A stretch of 60,124 nucleotides of DNA from an uncultured Prevotellaceae bacterium (GTDB lineage Bacteria > Bacteroidota > Bacteroidia > Bacteroidales > Muribaculaceae), in the NCBI GenBank assembly GCA_900318645.1, contig ONLH01000015.1, positions 1 through 60,124 on the forward strand. Reading direction: 5' to 3'. Shown piece after piece: positions 2-47,039 of the stretch. The position numbers and the translations under genes were made by a program. Every line of letters begins with the position of its first letter. Position 1 is the first letter of the stretch. Below the pieces are notes generated by a model. That model was not told the origin of the DNA. It saw only the letters and a list, made by a program, of their open reading frames with translations, and did not search any database.

Positions 2-694
2 TATCAGAGAGGTAATCCCTACTTGAAGCCCACCTACACCCACAGCCTGGTATTCAATGCCGCCTACCAGTGGATGAACCTGTCGCTGAACTACGCACGT
101 ATCAAGGACTCCGAGACGATGTCCACCGAGCCTTATCCCGGGTCAGAAGATCCGCTCATCAGCCTCGTGCATCCCATCAACAGCAAGGAGAGTTATAACC
201 GACTGACCGTCATCCCGTCGTTGAGACCCGTCTTTGGTTGCTGGCATCCCACTTGGACCTTCCTCGCTATCTTCCAGAACTACAAGACACCGACCGCCGA
301 TGGTTCCATCCTCACGCTGAACCACCCGTATCTGGGCTTGACATGGAACAACGACATCGAACTGCCGCACGCCTGGCGCCTGAATGCCATGGTGCAATGG
401 ACATCACGAGGTGACTACGACAACTTCCGAATCACCAAGAGCAGGTTCTATAGCGGCATCGGAGTGCAGAAAGATATCAGCTTGCAGCACCTTGGCTCAC
501 TGACTGTTGACGCGCGCTGCATGGACCTTCTCAACACCAGCAAGGCTAGGGCTACTATCTTCGGCCCTCGCGAGTTGACCACCAGCAATCCTGCCCGCCG
601 CACGTTTATGATCGACCTCACTTGGAAGTTCAACAGTGCAGGCAGCAAATACCGTGGCACCGGTGCCGGTGAGAAACAGAAGGCAAGAATGTAA
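2..694 (+). CDS. Outer-membrane beta-barrel / TonB-dependent receptor, C-terminal part (5' end outside window)
   Basis: Only the last 230 codons are present; the frame is open from base 2 and the start lies upstream of the window. The opening residues read YQRGNPYLKPTYTHSLV, the GNP-x-LKPE/T-type strand motif of the C-terminal barrel of TonB-dependent receptors and OMP_b-brl_3 proteins. The rest alternates aromatic and polar residues as in amphipathic strands (for example WMNLSLNYARI, FMIDLTWKFN), as expected in the outer membrane. The ending is unusual: after the last strand there is a basic, polar tail (GSKYRGTGAGEKQKARM) rather than a terminal aromatic residue. The substrate cannot be inferred without the plug domain. 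Confidence 0.8.
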   Translation, partial: YQRGNPYLKPTYTHSLVFNAAYQWMNLSLNYARIKDSETMSTEPYPGSEDPLISLVHPINSKESYNRLTVIPSLRPVFGCWHPTWTFLAIFQNYKTPTADGSILTLNHPYLGLTWNNDIELPHAWRLNAMVQWTSRGDYDNFRITKSRFYSGIGVQKDISLQHLGSLTVDARCMDLLNTSKARATIFGPRELTTSNPARRTFMIDLTWKFNSAGSKYRGTGAGEKQKARM

Positions 695-2822: not shown

Positions 2823-3260
2823 TTAGGCCTTAGCGCTGATGAGACGCACGAGGTCATTGAGTTGAAGGCACTGATCACGGTTGATGATCAGTGCCTCGTC
2901 GTGGTGTTCCCACAGGGCAAGGAATTCATTGACTTTCGCTTGAATTTCTGCTTCGGTGAAGCGGCGTGAACATAGCACTTGGCGTTTGACCGGTCGATTT
3001 AGCAAGAATCGGTTGCCGAGGGCCGAGATAGTTCTTCTAGCTACTGCCACATTGCGCTGGACACGGAACAAGTCGGGGTGCCCTCGCTTCATCAACAACC
3101 GAGTATTATCTTCAAGGTAGTGTAACCATTTTTCAAGTTTACCGGATCGCAGCAGCTTGTCATTATAGCCACGTGCAAAGGGCATGCCGTGTGTGCGATT
3201 CTCGCCACGGCGGTCTTTCTTGGGTTGTACCGTCTGTTGCGTTGACAACGCAACAGACGG
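2823..3260 (-). pseudogene. Remnant of a REP-associated (Y1/HUH-type) transposase, C-terminal part only
   Basis: On the minus strand the frame reads FARGYNDKLLRSGKLEKWLH, then a DNxRxLxxKRxxPxxF block, ALGNRFLLNRPVK and a CSR motif. This series (GYND-x-x-L, Y-x-x-DN-x-R-x-L, GN-x-x-LL-x-x-P, CSR) is what I know from the C-terminal half of REP-associated tyrosine transposases in Bacteroidetes. The N-terminal half, which would hold the HUH histidines and catalytic tyrosine, is absent; the reading frame runs back into the end of trkH with no credible start. It is best called a 5'-truncated pseudogene. The family call rests on remembered motifs, not a search. Confidence 0.5.
3230..3260. repeat. 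Perfect 14-bp hairpin between trkH and the transposase remnant
   Basis: CCGTCTGTTGCGTT (3230-3243) pairs fully with AACGCAACAGACGG (3247-3260) across a 3-base loop. It lies 12 bp beyond the trkH stop. There is no T-run on the trkH strand, so it may be a factor-assisted terminator, or a REP-like hairpin left by the adjacent transposase. Confidence 0.6.
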
Positions 3261-3271
3261 GAAGCATGGGT

Positions 3272-4753
3272 TTAGTCCTTTTTCCAGAAGGAACGGGTGA
3301 AGATGACCAGGACGGTAAATAGCTCTAGACGACCGACCATCATCTCGAAGGCAAGTACCCACTTGGCACCGGGATGCAGCGATACCCATGAACCGTTAGA
3401 TCCAGTCACACCGTAGCCGATGCCTACGTTGCTGATAGCTGACATTGAGGTGTACATTGCATCAAATACGGGAACGCCGTAGAAAGTGAGGTAAAGCGCA
3501 ACAATCATGATGATGCCCACATAGACAGTGAAGAAAGTGTTGACCTTGCTCACCACATGATTAGGAACCGGCTTGCCGTCAATGTGGACAGAACGTACCG
3601 AGTTGGTGTGCAGCACACGGTAGAACTCGTTGGCTGTGTGTTTCAACAGAACGATGAGGCGGTCCAACTTGGCACCACCCGAGGTGGAACCTGCCATGCC
3701 GCCAAAGAACATCATCACCATCAGGATGACGGTAACAAACTCACCGCTGTTCTCGTAGTCAAATGTAGAGAATCCCGTGGAAGTAATGGCCGACAGCGTG
3801 TCAAAGGCACCATAAATAATGCGGTCACTATGAGTATCGAGGAACCCCATATAAGCCATATATAAGAAGATGGCAACTGTCGTGATCAATGTCGTCATGC
3901 AATACCAGTGTAGGGTATTGTTGTGCTTGATGCGCTTGAAGTTGCCGCGCATGGTGGCCACAATAACCGAGAAACTGACACCGCCGATGAACATAAAGAT
4001 AATGACCACGATGAACACATAGCTTGACTGCCAATAGTCGAGACCTATATTCTTGGTCGAATAACCACCCGTAGAAGTCGTTGTCATCGCGTGGCACACA
4101 GCATCAAACCAGTCCATGGGGCCAAAATAGAGCAATGCCGTCAACAAAGCGGTTAGGCCGATATAGATGAGCCACAGGTCCTTAGCGGTCTGGCTCACAC
4201 GGGGACGCAGGCGCTCGTGGGTGATGCCCGTCACCTCGGCATTGAATAGGGCAATGCCGCCTTTCTGGTTCAGCATGGGGATAACGGCCAGCGTGAACAA
4301 GATGATTCCCATGCCACCGATCCACTGGGTCATGGCGCGCCAAAAGAGTACCCCATGAGGAATCTCCTCTACATAGCGGATAACACTTGATCCCGTAGTG
4401 GTAAAGCCCGCCATCGTCTCAAAGAAGGCATCGGTTACATTGTCAAACGTATTGGAAAACAGGTAGGGCAGCATGCCGAATACCGAGAAGAATACCCAAA
4501 TGATGGCAGTGAGCATCAGGCCTTCACGCTTGTGCATCGATGAGCTGTGAGGCTTAATGCCGAATGCCATGACAGCACCCGCACCGGCAGTGATTAGCGT
4601 GCTGTAGATGAAGGCACGCAAAGACGTGGGCTCATCGTATCCCCATGACACGGCAAGAGGCAAGAGCATGAAGGCTGCTTCGATGAGCAGTAGCCAGCCT
4701 TGCATTCTCAGAACGATGGCAAAATTGATATCTTGATTCTTGCGCCTGGGCAT
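3272..4753 (-). CDS. trkH: Trk-type potassium uptake membrane subunit
   Basis: A 493-residue inner-membrane channel subunit of the KtrB/TrkH superfamily. Four pore-loop repeats can be picked out by their T-T-x-G/S-T-x-G patterns (ETMAGFTTTGSSVI, CHAMTTTSTGGYST, DTLSAITSTGFSTF, TSMSAISNVGIGYG), separated by hydrophobic helices. The start MPRRKNQDINFAIVL is 8 bp after the stop of trkA, so the two are translated from one mRNA; TrkA gates TrkH by binding nucleotides. The length is normal for TrkH. Confidence 0.93.
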   Translation of the reverse strand: MPRRKNQDINFAIVLRMQGWLLLIEAAFMLLPLAVSWGYDEPTSLRAFIYSTLITAGAGAVMAFGIKPHSSSMHKREGLMLTAIIWVFFSVFGMLPYLFSNTFDNVTDAFFETMAGFTTTGSSVIRYVEEIPHGVLFWRAMTQWIGGMGIILFTLAVIPMLNQKGGIALFNAEVTGITHERLRPRVSQTAKDLWLIYIGLTALLTALLYFGPMDWFDAVCHAMTTTSTGGYSTKNIGLDYWQSSYVFIVVIIFMFIGGVSFSVIVATMRGNFKRIKHNNTLHWYCMTTLITTVAIFLYMAYMGFLDTHSDRIIYGAFDTLSAITSTGFSTFDYENSGEFVTVILMVMMFFGGMAGSTSGGAKLDRLIVLLKHTANEFYRVLHTNSVRSVHIDGKPVPNHVVSKVNTFFTVYVGIIMIVALYLTFYGVPVFDAMYTSMSAISNVGIGYGVTGSNGSWVSLHPGAKWVLAFEMMVGRLELFTVLVIFTRSFWKKD

Positions 4754-38726: not shown

Positions 38727-38734
38727 TAATTTTG
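38727..38734 (+). promoter_or_regulatory. -7 box for the DUF5686 gene
   Basis: TAATTTTG, 20 bp before ATG 38755. The GTG at 38734 overlaps the box, and ATG 38743 would leave almost no leader, so 38755 is the preferred start. Confidence 0.55.
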
Positions 38735-38754
38735 TGGGGCAAATGAGGGATTTT

Positions 38755-41286
38755 ATGCGACATATCGTTTGTGTGGTGGTGCTTGTGCTGACCGTGGCTC
38801 TGGCGGCCGTGGGACAGCAGGTGGCGGTGACACAGATTACTGGATACGTCAGGGACTCGCTGTCGCGTGAGGGAGTTCCTTATGCGTCGATTGCGCTGGT
38901 GGGTACCAGCGAAGGGACGCTGGCGACCGTCAATGGCGGCTTCACTATCAACAGCCGCGCCTCGTTTAACAAGCTGCGTATCACGGCCATGGGCTATAGC
39001 ACCAAGGAGGTGGCCATCAAGCCGGGGCAGGGGAGTGTCATCGTCATCGACCTTGTACCGACGGGCGTTGAACTGAACGAGGTGGTCGTTCACAAGGGCA
39101 AGGAGAAGTATTCCAAGAAGAACAATCCTGCCGTTGAGATGATCAAGAAACTGCGTGCCCGGCGCGATGACAATGACCCGCGCCGTTTCCAGTACTACGG
39201 CTACACTCAGTATGAGCGCATGATGGTGGGATTTGGCGACCTTGACAACTTGATTAACACACCTGATGAGCAAAAATGGGTTGACGAGTATGCCGATACC
39301 TCGTTGCTCACAGGCAAACGCGTCCTGCCGTTCTCCATCAAGGAGACGGTGGCCCGCGACTACTACAGCCGTCAGCCTGAAGCTCACAAACAGGTCATCC
39401 TTGGCACCAAGAGTGCGGGCATCGATGAACACATCGACCAAGAGAATGTCAAGAAGATCCTGGACGACTTCATGGGTGAGATTGACATCTTCCAGAATGA
39501 CGTGACCTTGCTGAGCAACCGTTTTGTCAGCCCGTTGTCACGCATTGCTGTGGATTTCTATAAGTTCTATCTCAACGACACGGTGATGGTCGACGGCGAG
39601 CGGTGTGCTGTGTTGAGTTTTGTGCCGTTCACGCCTCAGACCTTCGGCTTCCTGGGGCGCCTCTATGTCTCTCTCGAGGATACTACGATGTTCATCAAGC
39701 GGGTGTCAATGGGTGTCCCTTACGACATCAACCTCAACTATGTGGAGCGCATGAGTATCGAGCAGGACTTTGATAGGGCCCTCAACGGGTCTCGTCTCAA
39801 GGTGCGTGACAATGTGGAGGTGAGCCTCAAATTGCTCTCCAGTCTTCCTGTCATGTTTGCCCGTCGTGAGACCAGTTACCGTGACCACAACTTCGAGCGG
39901 CCCGAGGGCGGTGTCTTCAACAATAAGGCTGAGCAGACTGTCGAGTCCAGTGCTGCCTTCATGCCCGATGAATTCTGGCAGGAATATCGCCCTGCTGGCG
40001 TGCGAACGACCACGACGACGATGAAAAACCTCATGCAGCGCCTGCGCGGCTCAAGGTGGTTCTATTGGGCCGAAAAAGTCGTGGTGATGTTGGTCAACGG
40101 CTATGTCCCGACGGCCAAGACGAGCAAGTTTGACTTAGGTCCCTTGAATACAGTCATCAGTGGCAACTCGCTGGAGGGTGTGCGCCTTCGCTTGGGAGGC
40201 ATGACCACTGTCAACCTGAGTCGGCATTGGTTCGCTCGGGGTTATGTGGCCTATGGCTTCCGTGACAAGAAGTTCAAGTATATGGGTTCGCTGGAATATT
40301 CTTTCGCGCCCAAGAAGGCCCTGGATCAGGAGTTTCCCATTCACAGCCTGCGCCTCACCCATCGCTATGACGTGGACAAGCTGGCGCAACACTATCTCTA
40401 TACCAACCAGGACAATGTCTTTCTAACCCTGAGGCGGCATAAGGACGTGAGAATGCAGTACCTGCGCACGACACGCCTGGAATACCGCCACGAGTGGTAT
40501 AACCATTTCTCTATAGCCCTAAGCATCGAGCACAACGTCCACGAAGCCACCCGTTATGTTCCCTTTATCACTGCTGACAGTGCGTTTCATCAGCGTTATT
40601 CACAGGCCGGCTTTACGGCGCAGCTGCGATTCGCACCGGGCGAAACCTTCTACCAAGCCCGTTCCTACCGCATCCCCATCAATATGGATGCCCCCATCAT
40701 CACGCTCACCCAGACCTATATGCCGAAGGAATTCCTTGGCAGTCGATATGAGATTAACAAGACCGAGCTGGCGTTGCAAAAGCGGTTCTGGTTCTCAGCC
40801 TTCGGCTACGCCGATGTGATCGTCAAGGGCGAGAAGGTGTGGAGTCGCGTCGCTTACCCCGATCTGCTGTTGCCCAACGTGAACTTGTCCTATACCGTTC
40901 AGCCCGAGAGCTATGCCCTGATGAAACCCATGGAGTTCATCAACGACCAGGCCTTGTCATGGGACTTGACCTACTGGGGCAATGGCGTACTGATGAACCG
41001 CTTGCCGTTGATCAAGAAGCTGCGCCTGCGCGAAGTGTTCACCCTGCGTGGCCTGTGGGGCAGCCTCAGCGACAAGAATAATCCTGCCCTAAACAACGAC
41101 CTGTACCTTTTCCCAGCCGATGTCCTCTGCCAACCGATGAACGGCAAGCCCTACATGGAGGCTGGCGTAGGTCTGGACAACATCCTCACCATCTTGCGTG
41201 TAGACTATGTTTGGCGCCTCAACTATCGCGACCACGCCGGCACCGACCGCCACGGCATCCGCGTCCAGCTCCACTTCAACTTCTAA
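38755..41286 (+). CDS. DUF5686 outer-membrane protein with N-terminal carboxypeptidase-regulatory-like domain
   Basis: About 843 residues. A signal peptide (MRHIVCVVVLVLTVALAAVG) is followed by a carboxypeptidase-D regulatory-like beta sandwich (ITGYVRDSLSREGVPYASIA to VELNEVVVHKGKEKY) as in SusC/RagA-type proteins. The rest is the DUF5686 domain with a C-terminal region of amphipathic strands, ending in RHGIRVQLHFNF with a terminal Phe typical of outer-membrane barrels. It is Bacteroidetes-specific and its function is unknown. ATG 38743 would add four residues. Confidence 0.85.
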   Translation: MRHIVCVVVLVLTVALAAVGQQVAVTQITGYVRDSLSREGVPYASIALVGTSEGTLATVNGGFTINSRASFNKLRITAMGYSTKEVAIKPGQGSVIVIDLVPTGVELNEVVVHKGKEKYSKKNNPAVEMIKKLRARRDDNDPRRFQYYGYTQYERMMVGFGDLDNLINTPDEQKWVDEYADTSLLTGKRVLPFSIKETVARDYYSRQPEAHKQVILGTKSAGIDEHIDQENVKKILDDFMGEIDIFQNDVTLLSNRFVSPLSRIAVDFYKFYLNDTVMVDGERCAVLSFVPFTPQTFGFLGRLYVSLEDTTMFIKRVSMGVPYDINLNYVERMSIEQDFDRALNGSRLKVRDNVEVSLKLLSSLPVMFARRETSYRDHNFERPEGGVFNNKAEQTVESSAAFMPDEFWQEYRPAGVRTTTTTMKNLMQRLRGSRWFYWAEKVVVMLVNGYVPTAKTSKFDLGPLNTVISGNSLEGVRLRLGGMTTVNLSRHWFARGYVAYGFRDKKFKYMGSLEYSFAPKKALDQEFPIHSLRLTHRYDVDKLAQHYLYTNQDNVFLTLRRHKDVRMQYLRTTRLEYRHEWYNHFSIALSIEHNVHEATRYVPFITADSAFHQRYSQAGFTAQLRFAPGETFYQARSYRIPINMDAPIITLTQTYMPKEFLGSRYEINKTELALQKRFWFSAFGYADVIVKGEKVWSRVAYPDLLLPNVNLSYTVQPESYALMKPMEFINDQALSWDLTYWGNGVLMNRLPLIKKLRLREVFTLRGLWGSLSDKNNPALNNDLYLFPADVLCQPMNGKPYMEAGVGLDNILTILRVDYVWRLNYRDHAGTDRHGIRVQLHFNF

Positions 41287-41302
41287 ACACGCTTGAGCGG
41301 TA

Positions 41303-41409
41303 TTTTCCACATTTTCCACCCTTTCCACTATATACGTGTCATTCCACAATTTTTCTACCCTGGAGTGGAAAACACACGCATGTGTGAACAGGGTGGAAAA
41401 TGTGGAAAA
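41303..41409. repeat. TTTTCCAC iteron-like cluster, downstream copy
   Basis: Three tandem 9-mers TTTTCCACA, TTTTCCACC, CTTTCCACT run from 41303 to 41329. The far end has GGTGGAAAA (41392-41400) and TGTGGAAAA (41401-41409), so 41303-41321 and 41391-41409 are a perfect 19-bp inverted repeat. Between them lie AGTGGAAAA and the small palindrome CACACGCATGTGTG (41373-41386). A related cluster lies at 43217-43332 in the same orientation. The gap 41287-41951 is gene-free and filled by repeats. Confidence 0.88.
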
Positions 41410-41428
41410 AGTCTCCTGATGTAGAGGG

Positions 41429-41598
41429 TGTGTCATATTTCGTCTCGCGATTTTTAATCGGCCTGACGGCCGAGAAATTAAACAAAATTATTAATAAAAT
41501 TAAAAATAAAAATCTATTTTGTTTAATTTTTATACAAATTTTTGCTTAATTTCTCGCGCGAAGCGCGACTCAATTTGCAACGATTGAATTATGACACA
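41429..41598. mobile_element. 170-bp non-coding MITE-like element, copy 2 (inverted core)
   Basis: Terminal repeats TGTGTCATA (41429-41437) and TATGACACA (41590-41598) are perfect. Hairpins TCGGCC-TGAC-GGCCGA (41458-41473) and TCGCGC-GAA-GCGCGA (41554-41568) flank an AT-rich core (41474-41553) which, reverse complemented, matches the core of copy 1 at 29704-29781. Hairpin positions are kept while their sequences differ. Confidence 0.75.
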
Positions 41599-41632
41599 GC
41601 CTCCAGGAGGCCATATTGTGTCGTACAGGCAA

Positions 41633-41708
41633 AGTGGAAGAAAAACGTGGAAAAACCGCACACATGTGGAATGGGTGGAAAATGTGGAAAAAGTCTCCTG
41701 ATGTAGAG
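41633..41708. repeat. Partial TTTTCCAC cluster with a 36-bp exact duplication
   Basis: Bases 41673-41708 are identical to 41391-41426 (36 of 36). The preceding 40 bp carry degenerate GTGGAA units (41633, 41647, 41666). The two copies bracket MITE-like copy 2 with about 250 bp between them. Confidence 0.85.
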
Positions 41709-41780
41709 ACGCAAAATCTTGCGTCTCCAGGGCTGGCATATTGTGTCGCCTGTCGGGAGACGCAAGATTTTGCGTCTCTA
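41704..41780. repeat. Pair of inverted 25-bp palindromic repeats
   Basis: 41704-41728 and 41756-41780 are perfect reverse complements over 25 bp. Each is itself palindromic around GAGACGCAA and TTGCGTCTC. This resembles short dispersed GAGACGCAA-type repeats known from several bacterial groups. Confidence 0.85.
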
Positions 41781-41869
41781 CAGATGGTATGAATTGATTA
41801 TCAACGTTTTATTTTCGTTGAACTCTCGTTAGATAAATAATAAAATATTATTTCTTGTGATAACATGCT

Positions 41870-41936
41870 GTTTTTCACTTTTCCACCGTTTTCACTTCAT
41901 ATATAGTAGAGTGAAAACGGTGGAAAAGTGAAAAAC
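41870..41936. repeat. 27-bp perfect palindrome at the end of the ATPase gene
   Basis: 41870-41896 pairs without mismatch to 41910-41936 around a 13-base AT-rich loop. Each arm contains one TTTTCCAC octamer and two T-rich TTTTCACT-like units. It starts 15 bp after the ATPase stop. No T-run follows on the minus strand, so it is not a classical terminator. Confidence 0.92.
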
Positions 41937-41951
41937 GGCTGATAGGTGTTT

Positions 41952-43019
41952 TTATAAAGTTTTAAGGGTAAAATAATTACCGTCGCTGCTCGTCAGCAAC
42001 CCTTGTTCCTTCCCGCTGTTGAACAATTGATAGGCTCGGGTCTTTCCAACGCCTAGTCTTCCCTGTATCAAGTTAAGCACATCGGCGCTTGTTAAGGGCC
42101 TGTCGTAACCCTCAAAGCAGTGAGCCAGCTTGGAATGCAGTTTGGCCTTGTCTTCCTGTTTTTTCTGTTCCAGTTGCAGTTGGCGGTCGGTAGCAGCATC
42201 CATGGGGATGGCATTGGCGTCGAGTTTGAAGCAGATGCCGTCGCAGGTGCGGTGGCGACTGTTACCGTGTTTTACTTCAAACACGCTGTCGTGCTTCTCG
42301 ACGTTAAACACGTCGCTGCATTTCTGATAAAGCAAGGTACCCAGGTGGCCCTTCATGTTCTTGTCCAAGATGCTCTTGTTCTGGTGCATGACCACGACGA
42401 TACAGCAATTGTACTCGTTGGCTATCGTCGCCAGTTTGTTGACAATAATCTGGCTTTCAATCACGTCGTTGTAGTTGTAGATCAGGTCGGCAATGCCATC
42501 AACGATGACTAGGTCAGGATGCTCGTGGGCGATAGCACGGTTGATGACCTCATAGCGGGAAGGCTCAGAGTTGTTGTACTTGTCGCTAGTAATGGGGGCT
42601 GACTGCAAGCACGCCACCCTATAGTCGTCGTGGCGGCTCAGGGGCGTCATCGCATCTATGGTACCTTGGACACGCTTAGTGTCGCTCTCGGACTGCTCAG
42701 TGTCAAAGAACAACGCCCGTCCTGAGTCCCTCAGGCTGCGGCAATTGGTGAAATGGTCGCTGCCCATGAAGATGGCAGTCAAGATGTCGCAGAAGAAGGT
42801 CTTGCCGTTCTTCCACTTGGCGCTCACGGCCACCAGGTTGCCCTTGGGCATCGTGGGAACACCGCCAATCTCAATGAGGTACTCAGGATCGGGATATTCA
42901 ACATTGCGATCGATGAAGTAAGGCTTCATGAAGCGGTTGTAATCCTCGTTTAATCTCTCCTCCGGGGAGAGTGCTGTTTCGCGATTAATCGCGTCAATAA
43001 TTTCATTAATGTGGTTCAT
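41952..43019 (-). CDS. RecA-fold RepA/AAA_25-like ATPase (replicative helicase type), solitary
   Basis: A 355-residue protein. Walker A is AKWKNGKT (residues 67-74), a form seen in plasmid and phage RepA-like hexameric helicases; the Walker B stretch is DLVIVDGIADLIYNY (Asp near 174), followed by VVVMHQNKS (210-216) as sensor-type motif. The last 50 residues look like a winged helix (LTSADVLNLIQGRLGVGKTR). Such proteins normally sit with primases and DNA-binding proteins on plasmids or integrated elements; here the gene is alone, with its own promoter and with TTTTCCAC clusters on both sides. It is not a chromosomal DnaB. ATP-dependent DNA unwinding or DNA binding at the clusters is inference. 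Confidence 0.75.
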   Translation of the reverse strand: MNHINEIIDAINRETALSPEERLNEDYNRFMKPYFIDRNVEYPDPEYLIEIGGVPTMPKGNLVAVSAKWKNGKTFFCDILTAIFMGSDHFTNCRSLRDSGRALFFDTEQSESDTKRVQGTIDAMTPLSRHDDYRVACLQSAPITSDKYNNSEPSRYEVINRAIAHEHPDLVIVDGIADLIYNYNDVIESQIIVNKLATIANEYNCCIVVVMHQNKSILDKNMKGHLGTLLYQKCSDVFNVEKHDSVFEVKHGNSRHRTCDGICFKLDANAIPMDAATDRQLQLEQKKQEDKAKLHSKLAHCFEGYDRPLTSADVLNLIQGRLGVGKTRAYQLFNSGKEQGLLTSSDGNYFTLKTL

Positions 43020-43110
43020 GGTATTACATTAGTTCTAAAAAATAAAAAAATGAATAAATTGGCGAGTCGCTAGTCATTGACTTAGGCTATAGACCATAGA
43101 CTTGCCGCTG

Positions 43111-43143
43111 CAAAGTTACAACACGATTCCCCCGAAATCCAAA
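43111..43143 (-). promoter_or_regulatory. Promoter of the RepA-like ATPase gene
   Basis: The minus strand reads TTTG (43140-43143), 21 bp, then TAACTTTG (43111-43118) followed by C. The leader to ATG 43019 is about 85 nt. Confidence 0.65.
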
Positions 43144-43216
43144 TTATTCCAGCGAAAAGTTTGTAAAATACCAATTATTTTACTTTAATTTACTAATAAA
43201 AATGGTATTTTCTCCA

Positions 43217-43332
43217 TTTTTCACTTTTTCCACCTTTTCCACTATATACGTGCCTTTCCACAAATTTTCCGCCCCGAAGTGGAAAACACGCGCACATGTG
43301 AACGGGGTGGAAAATGTGGAAACCGTGGAATT
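43217..43332. repeat. TTTTCCAC iteron-like cluster, upstream copy
   Basis: Units TTTTTCACT, TTTTCCACC (43226), TTTTCCACT (43235) and CTTTCCACA (43254), then AGTGGAAAA (43278), GGTGGAAAA (43306), TGTGGAAAC (43315) and CGTGGAATT (43324). It shares the order of units and the 17-mer TTTCCACTATATACGTG with the cluster at 41303. It lies beyond the ATPase promoter and before dnaE. The gene-free gap 43020-43493 holds only this, the ATPase promoter and the dnaE leader. Confidence 0.85.
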
Positions 43333-43493: not shown

Positions 43494-46400
43494 ATGATAC
43501 CTTTTGTACACCTGCATGTACACTCACAATACTCCATTCTTGACGGTATGGCACCCGTCAAGGCTCTGGTCGATAAGGCGATAGCCGACGGTATGCGCGG
43601 CATGGCAATCACCGATCATGGCAATATGTATGGCATCAAGGAGTTTCATGACTACGTCGGCAAGCTCAATAAGAAGCGAGGCGATGATGAGAAGTTCAAA
43701 CCCATCTTCGGCTGCGAGGTCTATGTCGCCTGGCATGACCGCAACGACCGCAGTGACAAGCGCGATAACGGTAACCACCTGATCCTGCTTGCCAAGAATC
43801 TGCAAGGCTACAAGAACCTCATCAAGATTGTGTCCCACGCCTGGACCGAGGGATTCTATTTCCATCCCCGTACCGATCATAGCGAGCTCGAGAAATATCA
43901 CGAGGGCATCATCTGCTGCTCGGCATGTCTGGGTGGTGAGGTGCCACAACTCATCATGAGCGGCAAGATGAACCAGGCACGTGAGACCATCCAGTGGTTT
44001 AAAAGTGTGTTTGGTGATGACTATTATCTGGAACTGCAACGTCACAAGGCTACCGTGGCCCATGCCAACCACGATACCTACGAGAAGCAGTGCCTGGTCA
44101 ATGATGCTTTGATACAGTTCGCCCGCGAACTGGATATCAAGCTCATCTGCACCAACGATTCCCACTTCGTCAATGAGGAGGATGCTGATGCCCATGAACG
44201 CCTCATCTGTGTCTCGACCGGTCGCAAGCTCAATGATGAGAACGTGATGCTCTATAGCAAGCAGGAGTGGTTCAAGACCCAAGAGGAAATGAACGAGGTG
44301 TTTGCCGACATCCCCGAGGCGTTACAGAACACCAACGAAATCCTTGACAAGATAGAGATCTACAGCATTGACCATGCGCCTATTCTGCCTGATTTCCCCT
44401 TGCCCGACGGCTTTGACAACGAGGACGATTACCTGCGTTATCTGGTCTATGAGGGAGCCAAGGAACGTTGGCCCGACCTTGACGATGAACACCGCGAACG
44501 ACTTGACTTTGAATTGGAGACCATCAAGAACATGGGCTTTCCCGGTTACTTCCTGATTGTCCAGGATTACATCAAGATGGCCCCCAAGCTAGGCTGTTCC
44601 GTCGGCCCTGGCCGAGGCTCTGCTGCGGGGTCGGCAGTTGCCTATTGCCTGGGTATCACCAAGATTGACCCGATGAAGTATGACCTGCTGTTTGAGCGAT
44701 TCCTCAATCCTGACCGCATCTCGTTGCCCGATATCGACACCGACTTTGACGATGACGGTCGTGCCGCCGTGCTCAACTATGTGACTGAGAAATATGGTGC
44801 CGATAAGGTAGCCCATATCGTGACCTATGGCACCATGGCCGCCAAGAGTGCCATTAAGGACGTGGCACGTGTTGAGGATTTGTCAATCACCGAGAGTAAC
44901 CGTCTTGCCAAGTTCATTCCGTCTTCTCCCAATGAGATGCCCGAAGACAAGAACGGCAAGAAGCCCAAAATCACGGTTAAGAACTGCCTGGAGTGTTTTG
45001 ACAGCTTCCGAGCCGAATTGGACAACGAGGATCCCAGAGTGGGAGAGACTATCCGCTTTGCCGAGAAGCTCGAAGGCAGCATCCGCAGCACGGGTGTCCA
45101 TGCCTGTGGTGTTATCATCGGCCATGACCCCATCTCGGACTGGGTCCCCGTGAGCACCGCTACCGACAGTGACGGAGAACGCATTATAGTCACGCAGTAT
45201 GAGGGTGGTGTCATCGAGAGCACCGGCTTGATCAAGATGGACTTCCTGGGCCTGAAGAACCTCTCCATCATTAAGGAGGCGCTGGCCAACATCAAGCTGA
45301 ACCATGGCATTGACATCGATATTGAAAACATCCCTGTAGATGATGTCAAGACCTATGAGCTCTATTGTAAGGGCAAGACAGCAGGCACATTCCAGTTTGA
45401 ATCGGCAGGCATGCAGAAGTACCTCATCGAGTTGCATCCCACCTGCTTTGAGGACCTGATTGCCATGAATGCCCTCTATCGTCCAGGTCCCATGGATTAT
45501 ATCCCGCAGTTTATCAACCGCAAGCAGGGTAGGGAGCCCATCGAGTATGACATCCCATGCATGGAGAAATATCTGAAAGAGACTTACGGCATCACGGTCT
45601 ATCAAGAGCAAGTCATGTTGTTGTCCCGTCAGTTGGCAAACTTCACCCGTGGCCAGAGCGACACGCTGCGTAAAGCGATGGGAAAGAAGCAGATTGATAA
45701 GATGAACGAGCTGGAGGCCCTATTCTATGAGGGTGGCGAAAAGAACGGACACGACAAGAAGGTGCTGAACAAAATCTGGGAAGACTGGAAAAAGTTCGCT
45801 TCCTACGCCTTTAATAAGTCTCATGCCACCTGCTATAGCTGGGTCGCTTACCAGACCGCTTATCTCAAAGCCAACTATCCTAGCGAGTACATGGCCGCTG
45901 TCTTGAGCAGCAACCTTAATGATGTTGAAAAGTTGTCCAAGTATATGGACGAGTGCCGCTCCATGGGCATTGAGGTTCTTGGCCCCAATATCAACGAGAG
46001 TTATAAGAACTTCAGCGCCACAAAAGATGGACGCATCCGTTTTGGTCTTGCCGGCATCAAGGGCGTTGGCGGCGGTTGTGTGGATTCCATTGTCGAGGAA
46101 CGTGACAAGAACGGTGCCTATAAAGACATCTTTGACTTTGTTCAACGCATCGACCAGCGTGCTTGCAACCGCAAGGCGCTGGAATCAATGGCACTGGCTG
46201 GCGCATTCGACGACTTCAAGGAAATCAAGCGAGAGGACTTCTTTGAGTCAAATCCTCGTGGTGAGAGCTTCAGCGAAACGCTGATGCGATTCGGACAACG
46301 ATATCAGGCCAGTCAGCAGGAGATGCAGAATTCACTCTTTGGTGCCTTTGGCGCTATTGAGGTGGCCACTCCCGCCATTCCCAAAGCCGAACAATGGTCG

Positions 46401-47039
46401 CAACTGGAACGCCTCAACCGTGAGCGTGAGCTAGTGGGCATGTACTTGTCGGCCCATCCACTTGATCCTTATTATATGGAAGTCACCTACGGTTGTGACA
46501 CGCTGCTTGCCGAGGTGAATTCCCATAGCAACCAATTGGACCGTGAACTCACGATGGGCGGCCTCGTGGTGGATTTCCAGGAGCGCATGGGCCGAAAAGG
46601 CAACCAATTCGGCATCCTCAAGATTGAGGACTATTCGGGCTCGTTTGAGTTTATGCTTTTCGGCAACAAGTTTGTGGAATTCAGGAACTATGGAGTTCAA
46701 GGACTTGCCATCGTTGTGCGTGGAGCCTACGAACGTGGCTATGGCGATAATGTCCGCTTCAATGTCCACACCATCGACCTCCTTGAGAACCTCAAGGGCA
46801 AGATGGTAAACAATCTTGTCATTACACTCAAGGACAGTGACCTGAATAGTGTTGACTTCTTGAAACCCTATTTGGGAATTTCAGGCGATAACTGCTGTGA
46901 GCTTTACTTCCGCATGAAGGATGAAGCGAGCGGTAATTATGTCATGTTGCGTTCCAAGAAACCGATAGCTGTTGACAAACACTTGATGGAAAGCCTCAGA
47001 GAAGCAGACATCAAGTTCAAAGTCAATGCCCCGGTTTGA
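43494..47039 (+). CDS. dnaE: DNA polymerase III alpha subunit
   Basis: An 1181-residue replicative polymerase. The N-terminal PHP domain starts FVHLHVHSQYSILDGMAPVK; the polymerase active site PDIDTDFDDDGR is near residue 411 and GPGRGSAAGSAVAYCLGI lies just before it; the helix-hairpin-helix and OB-fold regions follow in the C-terminal third. There is no proofreading exonuclease domain, as expected for DnaE. The length is a little below many Bacteroidetes homologues, with all domains present. It is separated from the ATPase gene by the upstream TTTTCCAC cluster; trxA follows 115 bp downstream. Confidence 0.96.
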   Translation: MIPFVHLHVHSQYSILDGMAPVKALVDKAIADGMRGMAITDHGNMYGIKEFHDYVGKLNKKRGDDEKFKPIFGCEVYVAWHDRNDRSDKRDNGNHLILLAKNLQGYKNLIKIVSHAWTEGFYFHPRTDHSELEKYHEGIICCSACLGGEVPQLIMSGKMNQARETIQWFKSVFGDDYYLELQRHKATVAHANHDTYEKQCLVNDALIQFARELDIKLICTNDSHFVNEEDADAHERLICVSTGRKLNDENVMLYSKQEWFKTQEEMNEVFADIPEALQNTNEILDKIEIYSIDHAPILPDFPLPDGFDNEDDYLRYLVYEGAKERWPDLDDEHRERLDFELETIKNMGFPGYFLIVQDYIKMAPKLGCSVGPGRGSAAGSAVAYCLGITKIDPMKYDLLFERFLNPDRISLPDIDTDFDDDGRAAVLNYVTEKYGADKVAHIVTYGTMAAKSAIKDVARVEDLSITESNRLAKFIPSSPNEMPEDKNGKKPKITVKNCLECFDSFRAELDNEDPRVGETIRFAEKLEGSIRSTGVHACGVIIGHDPISDWVPVSTATDSDGERIIVTQYEGGVIESTGLIKMDFLGLKNLSIIKEALANIKLNHGIDIDIENIPVDDVKTYELYCKGKTAGTFQFESAGMQKYLIELHPTCFEDLIAMNALYRPGPMDYIPQFINRKQGREPIEYDIPCMEKYLKETYGITVYQEQVMLLSRQLANFTRGQSDTLRKAMGKKQIDKMNELEALFYEGGEKNGHDKKVLNKIWEDWKKFASYAFNKSHATCYSWVAYQTAYLKANYPSEYMAAVLSSNLNDVEKLSKYMDECRSMGIEVLGPNINESYKNFSATKDGRIRFGLAGIKGVGGGCVDSIVEERDKNGAYKDIFDFVQRIDQRACNRKALESMALAGAFDDFKEIKREDFFESNPRGESFSETLMRFGQRYQASQQEMQNSLFGAFGAIEVATPAIPKAEQWSQLERLNRERELVGMYLSAHPLDPYYMEVTYGCDTLLAEVNSHSNQLDRELTMGGLVVDFQERMGRKGNQFGILKIEDYSGSFEFMLFGNKFVEFRNYGVQGLAIVVRGAYERGYGDNVRFNVHTIDLLENLKGKMVNNLVITLKDSDLNSVDFLKPYLGISGDNCCELYFRMKDEASGNYVMLRSKKPIAVDKHLMESLREADIKFKVNAPV

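Follow-up and report, generated by a model that had tools for sequence, protein, structure and literature searches.

A single ATPase gene stands between two clusters of short repeats next to dnaE, and the question is whether this island is a replication module, a mobile element or a regulator of its neighbour, all of which had been proposed by a sequence-only reading. The island lies in the window, by which we mean the whole stretch of 60,124 nt that was analysed. We find that it is real, evolutionarily mobile and under selection. To our preferred explanation we give about an even chance: the island would be a reduced, still relocating replication module of the iteron type, with a helicase that itself recognises the repeats.

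Repeat clusters and hairpins of the island

The unit TTTTCCAC or its complement was found 17 times in the window, and 14 of these copies, the number counted by the sequence-only reading, fell inside 41303-43332. Dinucleotide-preserving shuffles (n=100) contained 2.1 copies on average and 8 at most. First-order Markov copies of the whole window (n=300) never had more than 3 units in any 2,030 bp; with only the 1,142 intergenic bases that separate the ATPase gene from its neighbours as the source (n=2,000), the maximum was 2. The clustering of TTTTCCAC in the island is beyond chance. An array of short units far above chance and adjoining a replication gene, as expected of an iteron-type arrangement, is thus present. 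The two main clusters (about 41302-41408 and 43216-43322) indeed have the same orientation and unit order, as had been read, with an 87% match over 107 nt and a common 17-mer starting at 41322 and 43236. A recount in the island also gave the three units reading TTTTCCACA.

Cluster palindromy, a partial third copy and a hairpin behind the ATPase stop codon came in addition to the earlier description. Each cluster is an imperfect palindrome, with plus-strand units on the left arm and minus-strand units on the right; adjacent units are spaced 9 bp, and the arms are inverted relative to each other. Hairpin H (30 nt, 97% complementary) scored 27, versus at most 8 in 20 shuffles. Three of the five long hairpins of the 60-kb window (arms of at least 16, loop below 40) are located in the island. 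The partial third cluster, in which the repeated copy itself spans 41647-41708, looks like a duplication around an inserted MITE-like repeat, which probably lies outside the original module. Repeats of this kind with GTGTGTCATA ends were also seen in L012 (5070-5250), L029 (5083-5235) and L092; in L012 and L029, where hairpin H is absent, the repeat occupies the place expected for the hairpin behind the ATPase. The promoter of the ATPase gene was assigned as probable from what we take to be the Bacteroidetes promoter consensus. The pair of REP-like palindromes is probably a separate repeat that landed in the island. This pair and a counterpart near 73000 of contig C71 of the own genome (L008) read TGTAGAGACGC...GCGTCTC with a GTAG end, and a GTAG end is described as a tag of RAYT-linked REPs in excerpts of PMC3733652. 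All features are listed in Table 1.

Table 1. Location of the island's features and flanking genes in the window, and of the domains in the ATPase protein.
Feature	Position	Strand	Description
Flanking gene, DUF5686/CarboxypepD_reg_2 protein	38734..41286	+	ORF, Pfam
Downstream cluster C (viewed from the ATPase)	41302..41409	-	palindromic array of TTTTCCAC-type units, CACATGTG/ACGTATATAG core
MITE-like insert	41424..41603		ends GAGGGTGTGTCATA / TATGACACAGCCTC
Partial third cluster	about 41635..41708	-	last stretch GTGGAAAATGTGGAAAAAGTCTCCTGATGTAGAG common with 41393-41426
Pair of REP-like palindromes	41702..41782		TGTAGAGACGCAAAATCTTGCGTCTCC plus its inverse
Hairpin H	41867..41939	-	built from TTTTCCAC-type unit, ATATAT loop, directly behind ATPase stop codon
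RepA-like ATPase gene	41952..43019	-	355 aa, intact ORF
Candidate ATPase promoter	43111..43143	-	TTGG... and TAACTTTG; from sequence
Upstream cluster C	about 43217..43332	-	between ATPase promoter and dnaE
Flanking gene dnaE	43494..47039	+	ORF, Pfam
ATPase, RecA-fold core	residues about 33-290		predicted structure
ATPase, helix and winged-helix domain	residues about 276-355		predicted structure

The ATPase has a RepA-like core and a predicted winged helix

The ATPase matched Pfam AAA_25 (E 5e-13). Its AlphaFold2 model, built with 22 relatives in the alignment, had a mean pLDDT of 84.8 and a pTM of 0.74. RSF1010 RepA ranked first by Foldseek and by VIA-align, the latter covering mainly residues 33-279, and RadA and DnaB were close behind. 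The RecA-fold, RepA-like label that had been given to the protein is therefore good but not exclusive, as judged from the model. A sequence search of the PDB returned one chance match only (E 0.14). The predicted structure thus has a RecA-type core closest to RepA/DnaB, as expected of a RepA/DnaB-type (SF4) helicase, and the conserved catalytic motifs of that class also appear to be present: K73-T74, E108, D174 and H212-Q213, which we take to be these motifs, were invariant across 23 proteins (the window and 22 of the 28 loci described below; L020, L027, L030, L032, L033 and L035 were omitted).

The last 80 residues, modelled alone from 14 sequences, formed three helices and a two-strand wing (pLDDT 84.8). 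Foldseek matched this model to winged-helix regulators, FtsK gamma and the MCM C-terminus, all weakly (best E 0.003, none at or below 0.001), which tentatively points to a winged helix. The dN/dS of the ATPase was 0.16-0.25 versus six relatives, and the reading frame was intact in all 7 members of the TTTTCCAC group, indicating purifying selection on the gene.

Relatives of the ATPase and their gene contexts

A scan of 84,980 species genomes yielded 28 ATPase loci, and every one of them came from a MAG titled Prevotellaceae, Muribaculaceae or Bacteroidales. Within the genus (37 genomes), 12 strong copies (E 1e-160 or better) were spread over 8 genomes, with up to three in one genome, and among 393 genomes drawn across the order E 1e-60 was reached only by the own genome. 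The ATPase island is so far restricted to one genus. More distant homologues (27-31%) were found on Bacteroidales plasmids, between HTH genes and a toprim gene. From viral contigs, 29 stretches fit the search patterns and none was a relative of the ATPase, and none of the 15 phage and 18 plasmid records matched exceeded 60% identity to it; a viral origin of the island was rejected on these grounds.

No recognised partner adjoined the ATPase at 11 loci (L009-L014, L018-L020, L023, L029). DUF6371 lay behind the ATPase in 7 of the 28 loci, alone in L030 and with a terminase-like gene in front in the 6 others (L015, L017, L021, L022, L024, L034). These six carry a four-gene unit of terminase-like large subunit, ATPase, wHTH protein and DUF6371. 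The terminase-like gene of L022 had a PHROG match of 1.7e-15, the wHTH protein had a BLAST match in 5 of the 6, and no capsid gene was recognised within the stretches examined; the unit is possibly a phage satellite. In two of the fuller versions (L022, L030) a region of hairpins and arrays separates the ATPase gene from the wHTH gene, which DUF6371 follows, and this region is where an origin would be expected. At 10 loci the neighbour was RAYT-like (L016, L025-L028, L031-L033, L035, L036; a fragment in L026). In the nine of these other than L016 the RAYT-like gene and the ATPase stand next to each other, with type I restriction (hsdM/hsdS) genes close by in most. Pfam gave no match at E 0.01 for the terminase-like, wHTH and RAYT-like neighbours; PHROGs helped for the terminase-like neighbour and NCBIfam for the RAYT-like one.

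The island itself contains no transposase, integrase, primase or wHTH partner. That no partner is present, as had been stated, holds for the window and, for the one candidate DUF6371, genome-wide, a search of the own genome having given no match. No integrase or relaxase ORF was found between DUF5686 and dnaE, as an integrative mobilisable element would have. No PADLOC family matched at E 0.01, and the reading as a known defence gene was dropped. Rfam gave 15 matches up to E 0.5, all under gathering scores, and an RNA element was rejected with the best of them, MIR5304 on the hairpin, at 41.6 of 75 bits. Among the papers listed by literature searches, none dealt with such a helicase-between-repeats element.

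The clusters are conserved together with the gene

TTTCCAC clusters were found in 6 of the 28 loci, namely those with the highest identity to the window (72-91%), among them its sisters L009 and L010 at 90-91%. The expectation that clusters travel with the ATPase held in part: these six relatives have them on both sides of the gene, weakly in one, and in distant paralogues the repeats are built of other units or are absent from one side of the gene. In L011 each side carries just two units, mostly of the TTTTCCGC variant. When 12 clusters were aligned, two from each of 6 genomes, 54 columns were invariant. The upstream and downstream flanks of the TTTTCCAC group (7 loci) shared a mean of 46 9-mers, compared with 6.7 with other groups; L009 shared 11, not clearly above the between-group maximum, as the 650-bp flank does not reach its far cluster. 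For most other loci the test was negative, and outside the TTTTCCAC group L023 alone was clearly above the between-group maximum. The proposal that each paralogue has its own unit on either side of the gene failed in this test, and the two-sided pattern was seen only in the TTTTCCAC group.

The island occupies different sites in related genomes

In the window the island neighbours the DUF5686 gene and dnaE. In five of the six close relatives (L009, L010, L012, L013, L029) the next gene downstream is dxr; the upstream gene encodes an S41/tricorn-type protease in L009-L013 and is a different gene in L029. Because the neighbours differ (dnaE or dxr), the suggestion that the ATPase regulates dnaE was dropped. 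As a whole, the interpretation given by the sequence-only reading is supported in part. Empty sites, which the sequence-only reading had proposed to look for, do exist, with the stop of the DUF5686 gene followed by the dnaE leader. Of the 50 genomes with a dnaE match, 30 were read (29 without the own genome), and in 8 of these 29 other loci DUF5686 was directly upstream; none had the ATPase. Among the genomes of the six close relatives, DUF5686 adjoins dnaE with no island in three (L124, L126, L129). L124, the dnaE locus of the genome that holds L010, is 89% identical to the window and is the nearest dnaE DNA among those read. In this nearest genome the island is present at dxr and absent from dnaE; in the own genome it stands at dnaE, with a short cluster remnant at dxr. 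Each of the two sites is thus occupied in some relatives and empty in others, as generally required of a mobile element, and the pattern at dnaE and dxr is reciprocal. Therefore, as far as comparison of the loci indicates, the island changes its place in the course of evolution and has no fixed tie to dnaE.

At the own dxr site, homology to L010 is lost after TGTAGAG on the left side and starts again at AAAGGGTGGAAA on the right side. The left arm of a cluster sits between these breaks, and the L010 homology breaks inside the cluster. Half a cluster was also found before dxr in G024, and a further cluster remnant upstream of an HhH-GPD (mutY-like) gene in the own genome. The compared sites, where the spacers are too diverged, revealed neither base-exact ends nor a target duplication.

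The repeat type goes with the C-terminal domain

The hairpins and arrays of the paralogues are made of the units TTTCTCAT (L019), TTTCTACT (L026), TTTCGTCCATTTCATCC (L030), TTCGTCTA (L014, L018, L020), TTTTTATCC (L023) and GAACGAACGAATGAAC (L025 and kin). The proteins of 16 paralogues outside the TTTTCCAC group were 68% identical to the window in the core and 21% in the C-terminus. Downstream repeat similarity correlated with C-terminal identity when the core was held fixed (partial r 0.44-0.50, permutation p 0.0005-0.002) and not with core identity when the C-terminus was held fixed (partial r -0.09 to 0.03); the analysis was run on 21 or 16 proteins, with L009 and L036 dropped as near-duplicates. 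Moreover, L019 and L022, whose cores are 98% identical, have one common 878-bp block (95.9% identical) that stops at the start of the C-terminal domain; past this point the gene end and the repeats both differ. These results indicate that the repeat type goes with the C-terminal domain rather than with the core. The main caveat is linkage: the domain lies right next to the downstream repeats, and their joint inheritance might by itself produce the correlation. L014 and L018 are a misfit, with C-termini 72% alike and unlike downstream DNA (cosine 0.04); the arrays are upstream there.

A hairpin above the best of 20 shuffles was present in 19 of 23 regions, several of them picked by eye (L031, L024, L015 and L016 did not exceed). 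A second, conserved hairpin (TTGTGTCA-TCGCAAGTTT-TGACACAA and sequences close to it) occurs in 17 of the 29 ATPase loci, 13 times behind the gene and 4 times before it, and it is intact at none of the 7 TTTTCCAC-group loci. At up to 2 mismatches it was found 7 times in 5 of the 37 genomes: once beside the G021 ATPase, once inside a gene, by chance, and five times in gene-less hairpin-array modules (own C72, G006, two in G007, G009). The RepA-like ATPase family is wholly absent from G006, G007 and G009. Separately, two tandem gene-less cluster-hairpin modules with TTTTTCTCA-like units lie beside a TTTTCCAC remnant in the own genome (C71:73101; L008 1300-2000).

A proposed replication module and the alternatives to it

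We propose that the gene product is an SF4/RepA-type hexameric helicase, whose C-terminal winged helix would recognise the 8-9-bp unit of the flanking clusters and of the hairpin behind the gene. What is left of an origin would be this hairpin together with the AT-rich spacer and the downstream cluster. By analogy with the initiator and helicase of iteron plasmids, the helicase would dock on its own repeats and load on melted DNA. The family also occurs as a larger set of helicase, wHTH protein and primase-like DUF6371 protein, with the array between the helicase and wHTH genes; the window copy would have kept only the helicase and the arrays. The 2-kb island stands at differing chromosomal sites of related genomes, where cluster scars are left, and recombination between the two same-orientation clusters could yield a circle with one cluster.

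The locus could instead be left over from a larger integrated helicase-wHTH-primase element in decay, with the arrays as its old origin, nothing replicating or moving now, and the dxr-dnaE shift reflecting separate old full insertions that then lost their other genes. Fuller versions do exist, some of them at these two sites: a terminase-type one stands between DUF5686 and dnaE in L034, and an ATPase-DUF6371 version stands behind the S41 gene in L030. The cluster scars at dxr agree with this, and the erosion of the second hairpin in the TTTTCCAC group, together with the missing H in L012 and L029, fits decay as well as reduction. However, the frames are intact in 7 of 7 members with the dN/dS given above, and the cluster columns are conserved. 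Under decay, the solitary form would also have had to arise by reduction independently at each of the two sites, although L009 and L010 are sisters of the window. We consider this explanation unlikely.

The RAYT-like genes suggest another source of movement: a transposon moved in trans by an HUH (Y1) transposase, as in REPtrons or TIRtrons, with the palindromic clusters as ends cut by a RAYT-like protein elsewhere in the genome and the ATPase as an accessory helicase. The 10 adjoining genes matched NCBIfam REP_Tyr_transpos below the cut-off of that model (E 1e-10 to 4e-11). RAYT-like genes are also present at 5 places in the own genome, and four of these have an open frame of 335-387 aa. Excerpts of PMC3733652 describe RAYT-like genes enclosed by long terminal inverted repeats. 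None of the 7 TTTTCCAC loci has an adjoining RAYT, however, and the one fragment in the window (188 aa, 2826-3389) is 39 kb away. Nine of the 10 RAYT neighbours are one family beside type I restriction genes and may be one inherited arrangement, and the two clusters are direct repeats of each other. We rate transposition in trans as rather improbable.

Autoregulation, in which the winged helix would act from the upstream cluster as a repressor of its own promoter and, by chance, of neighbouring genes, draws on the position of that cluster about 70-190 bp before the probable ATPase promoter, and on the downstream cluster shortly before dxr at that site. The RecA-type helicase fold, the differing neighbours and the clusters behind the gene make it very unlikely as a full explanation, and it could coexist with the replication module. 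Least credible of all is a guard against competing replicons, in which a kept helicase-initiator soaks up or blocks same-repeat elements as in plasmid incompatibility: three repeat types do occur with three paralogues in one genome (G036: L014, L017, L019), but no defence family matched.

If the replication-module reading is right, the island would show how small relocating replication units can get. In iteron plasmids the initiator that reads the repeats is separate from the helicase that opens the DNA; a helicase carrying its own reader, with reader and code switching together as in L019/L022, would make the origin code decipherable by comparison and by simple domain swaps. There is a slim chance that these elements form a new minimal class of mobile replicon, with one hexameric helicase gene, an exchangeable winged-helix reader and arrays in a private code, reader and code changing together so that elements coexist like compatible plasmids, and with the gene-less modules (own C72, G006, G007, G009) as non-autonomous passengers. 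If the island is only a remnant, it documents the decay of such units at chromosomal hot spots like dnaE and dxr.

Comparison with known systems

The closest structural counterpart is RSF1010 RepA, the IncQ hexameric replicative helicase (PDB 1g8y, 1nlf, 1olo), the top fold match of the model. The two proteins are 14% identical, and the window ATPase has, in addition, the predicted C-terminal winged helix. In RSF1010 a separate RepC serves the iterons; the island, in contrast, is chromosomal, with no RepC or RepB homologue at the locus. In gene order, Bacteroidales mobilisable elements (Int-HTH-HTH-AAA ATPase-toprim-MobC-relaxase, e.g. NZ_OY725959.1) have an AAA_25 ATPase and then a toprim gene, comparable to ATPase-wHTH-DUF6371 in some paralogues. 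Their helicase is 27-31% identical to the ATPase over 57-76% of the protein, in the core only, and they have an integrase and a relaxase, whereas the island has neither. REPtrons and TIRtrons, RAYT genes flanked by palindromes, resemble the island in having one gene between palindromic repeats, and RAYT-like genes also adjoin some ATPase paralogues. However, the flanked gene of the island is an AAA_25 helicase and no HUH tyrosine transposase, and its repeats are arrays of an 8-9-bp unit. Finally, FtsK is a hexameric motor whose gamma winged helix reads the 8-bp KOPS. The ATPase likewise joins a motor to a predicted C-terminal winged helix, to whose model FtsK gamma matches at E 0.04-0.1; the motor families differ, and the likeness appears to be one of working only.
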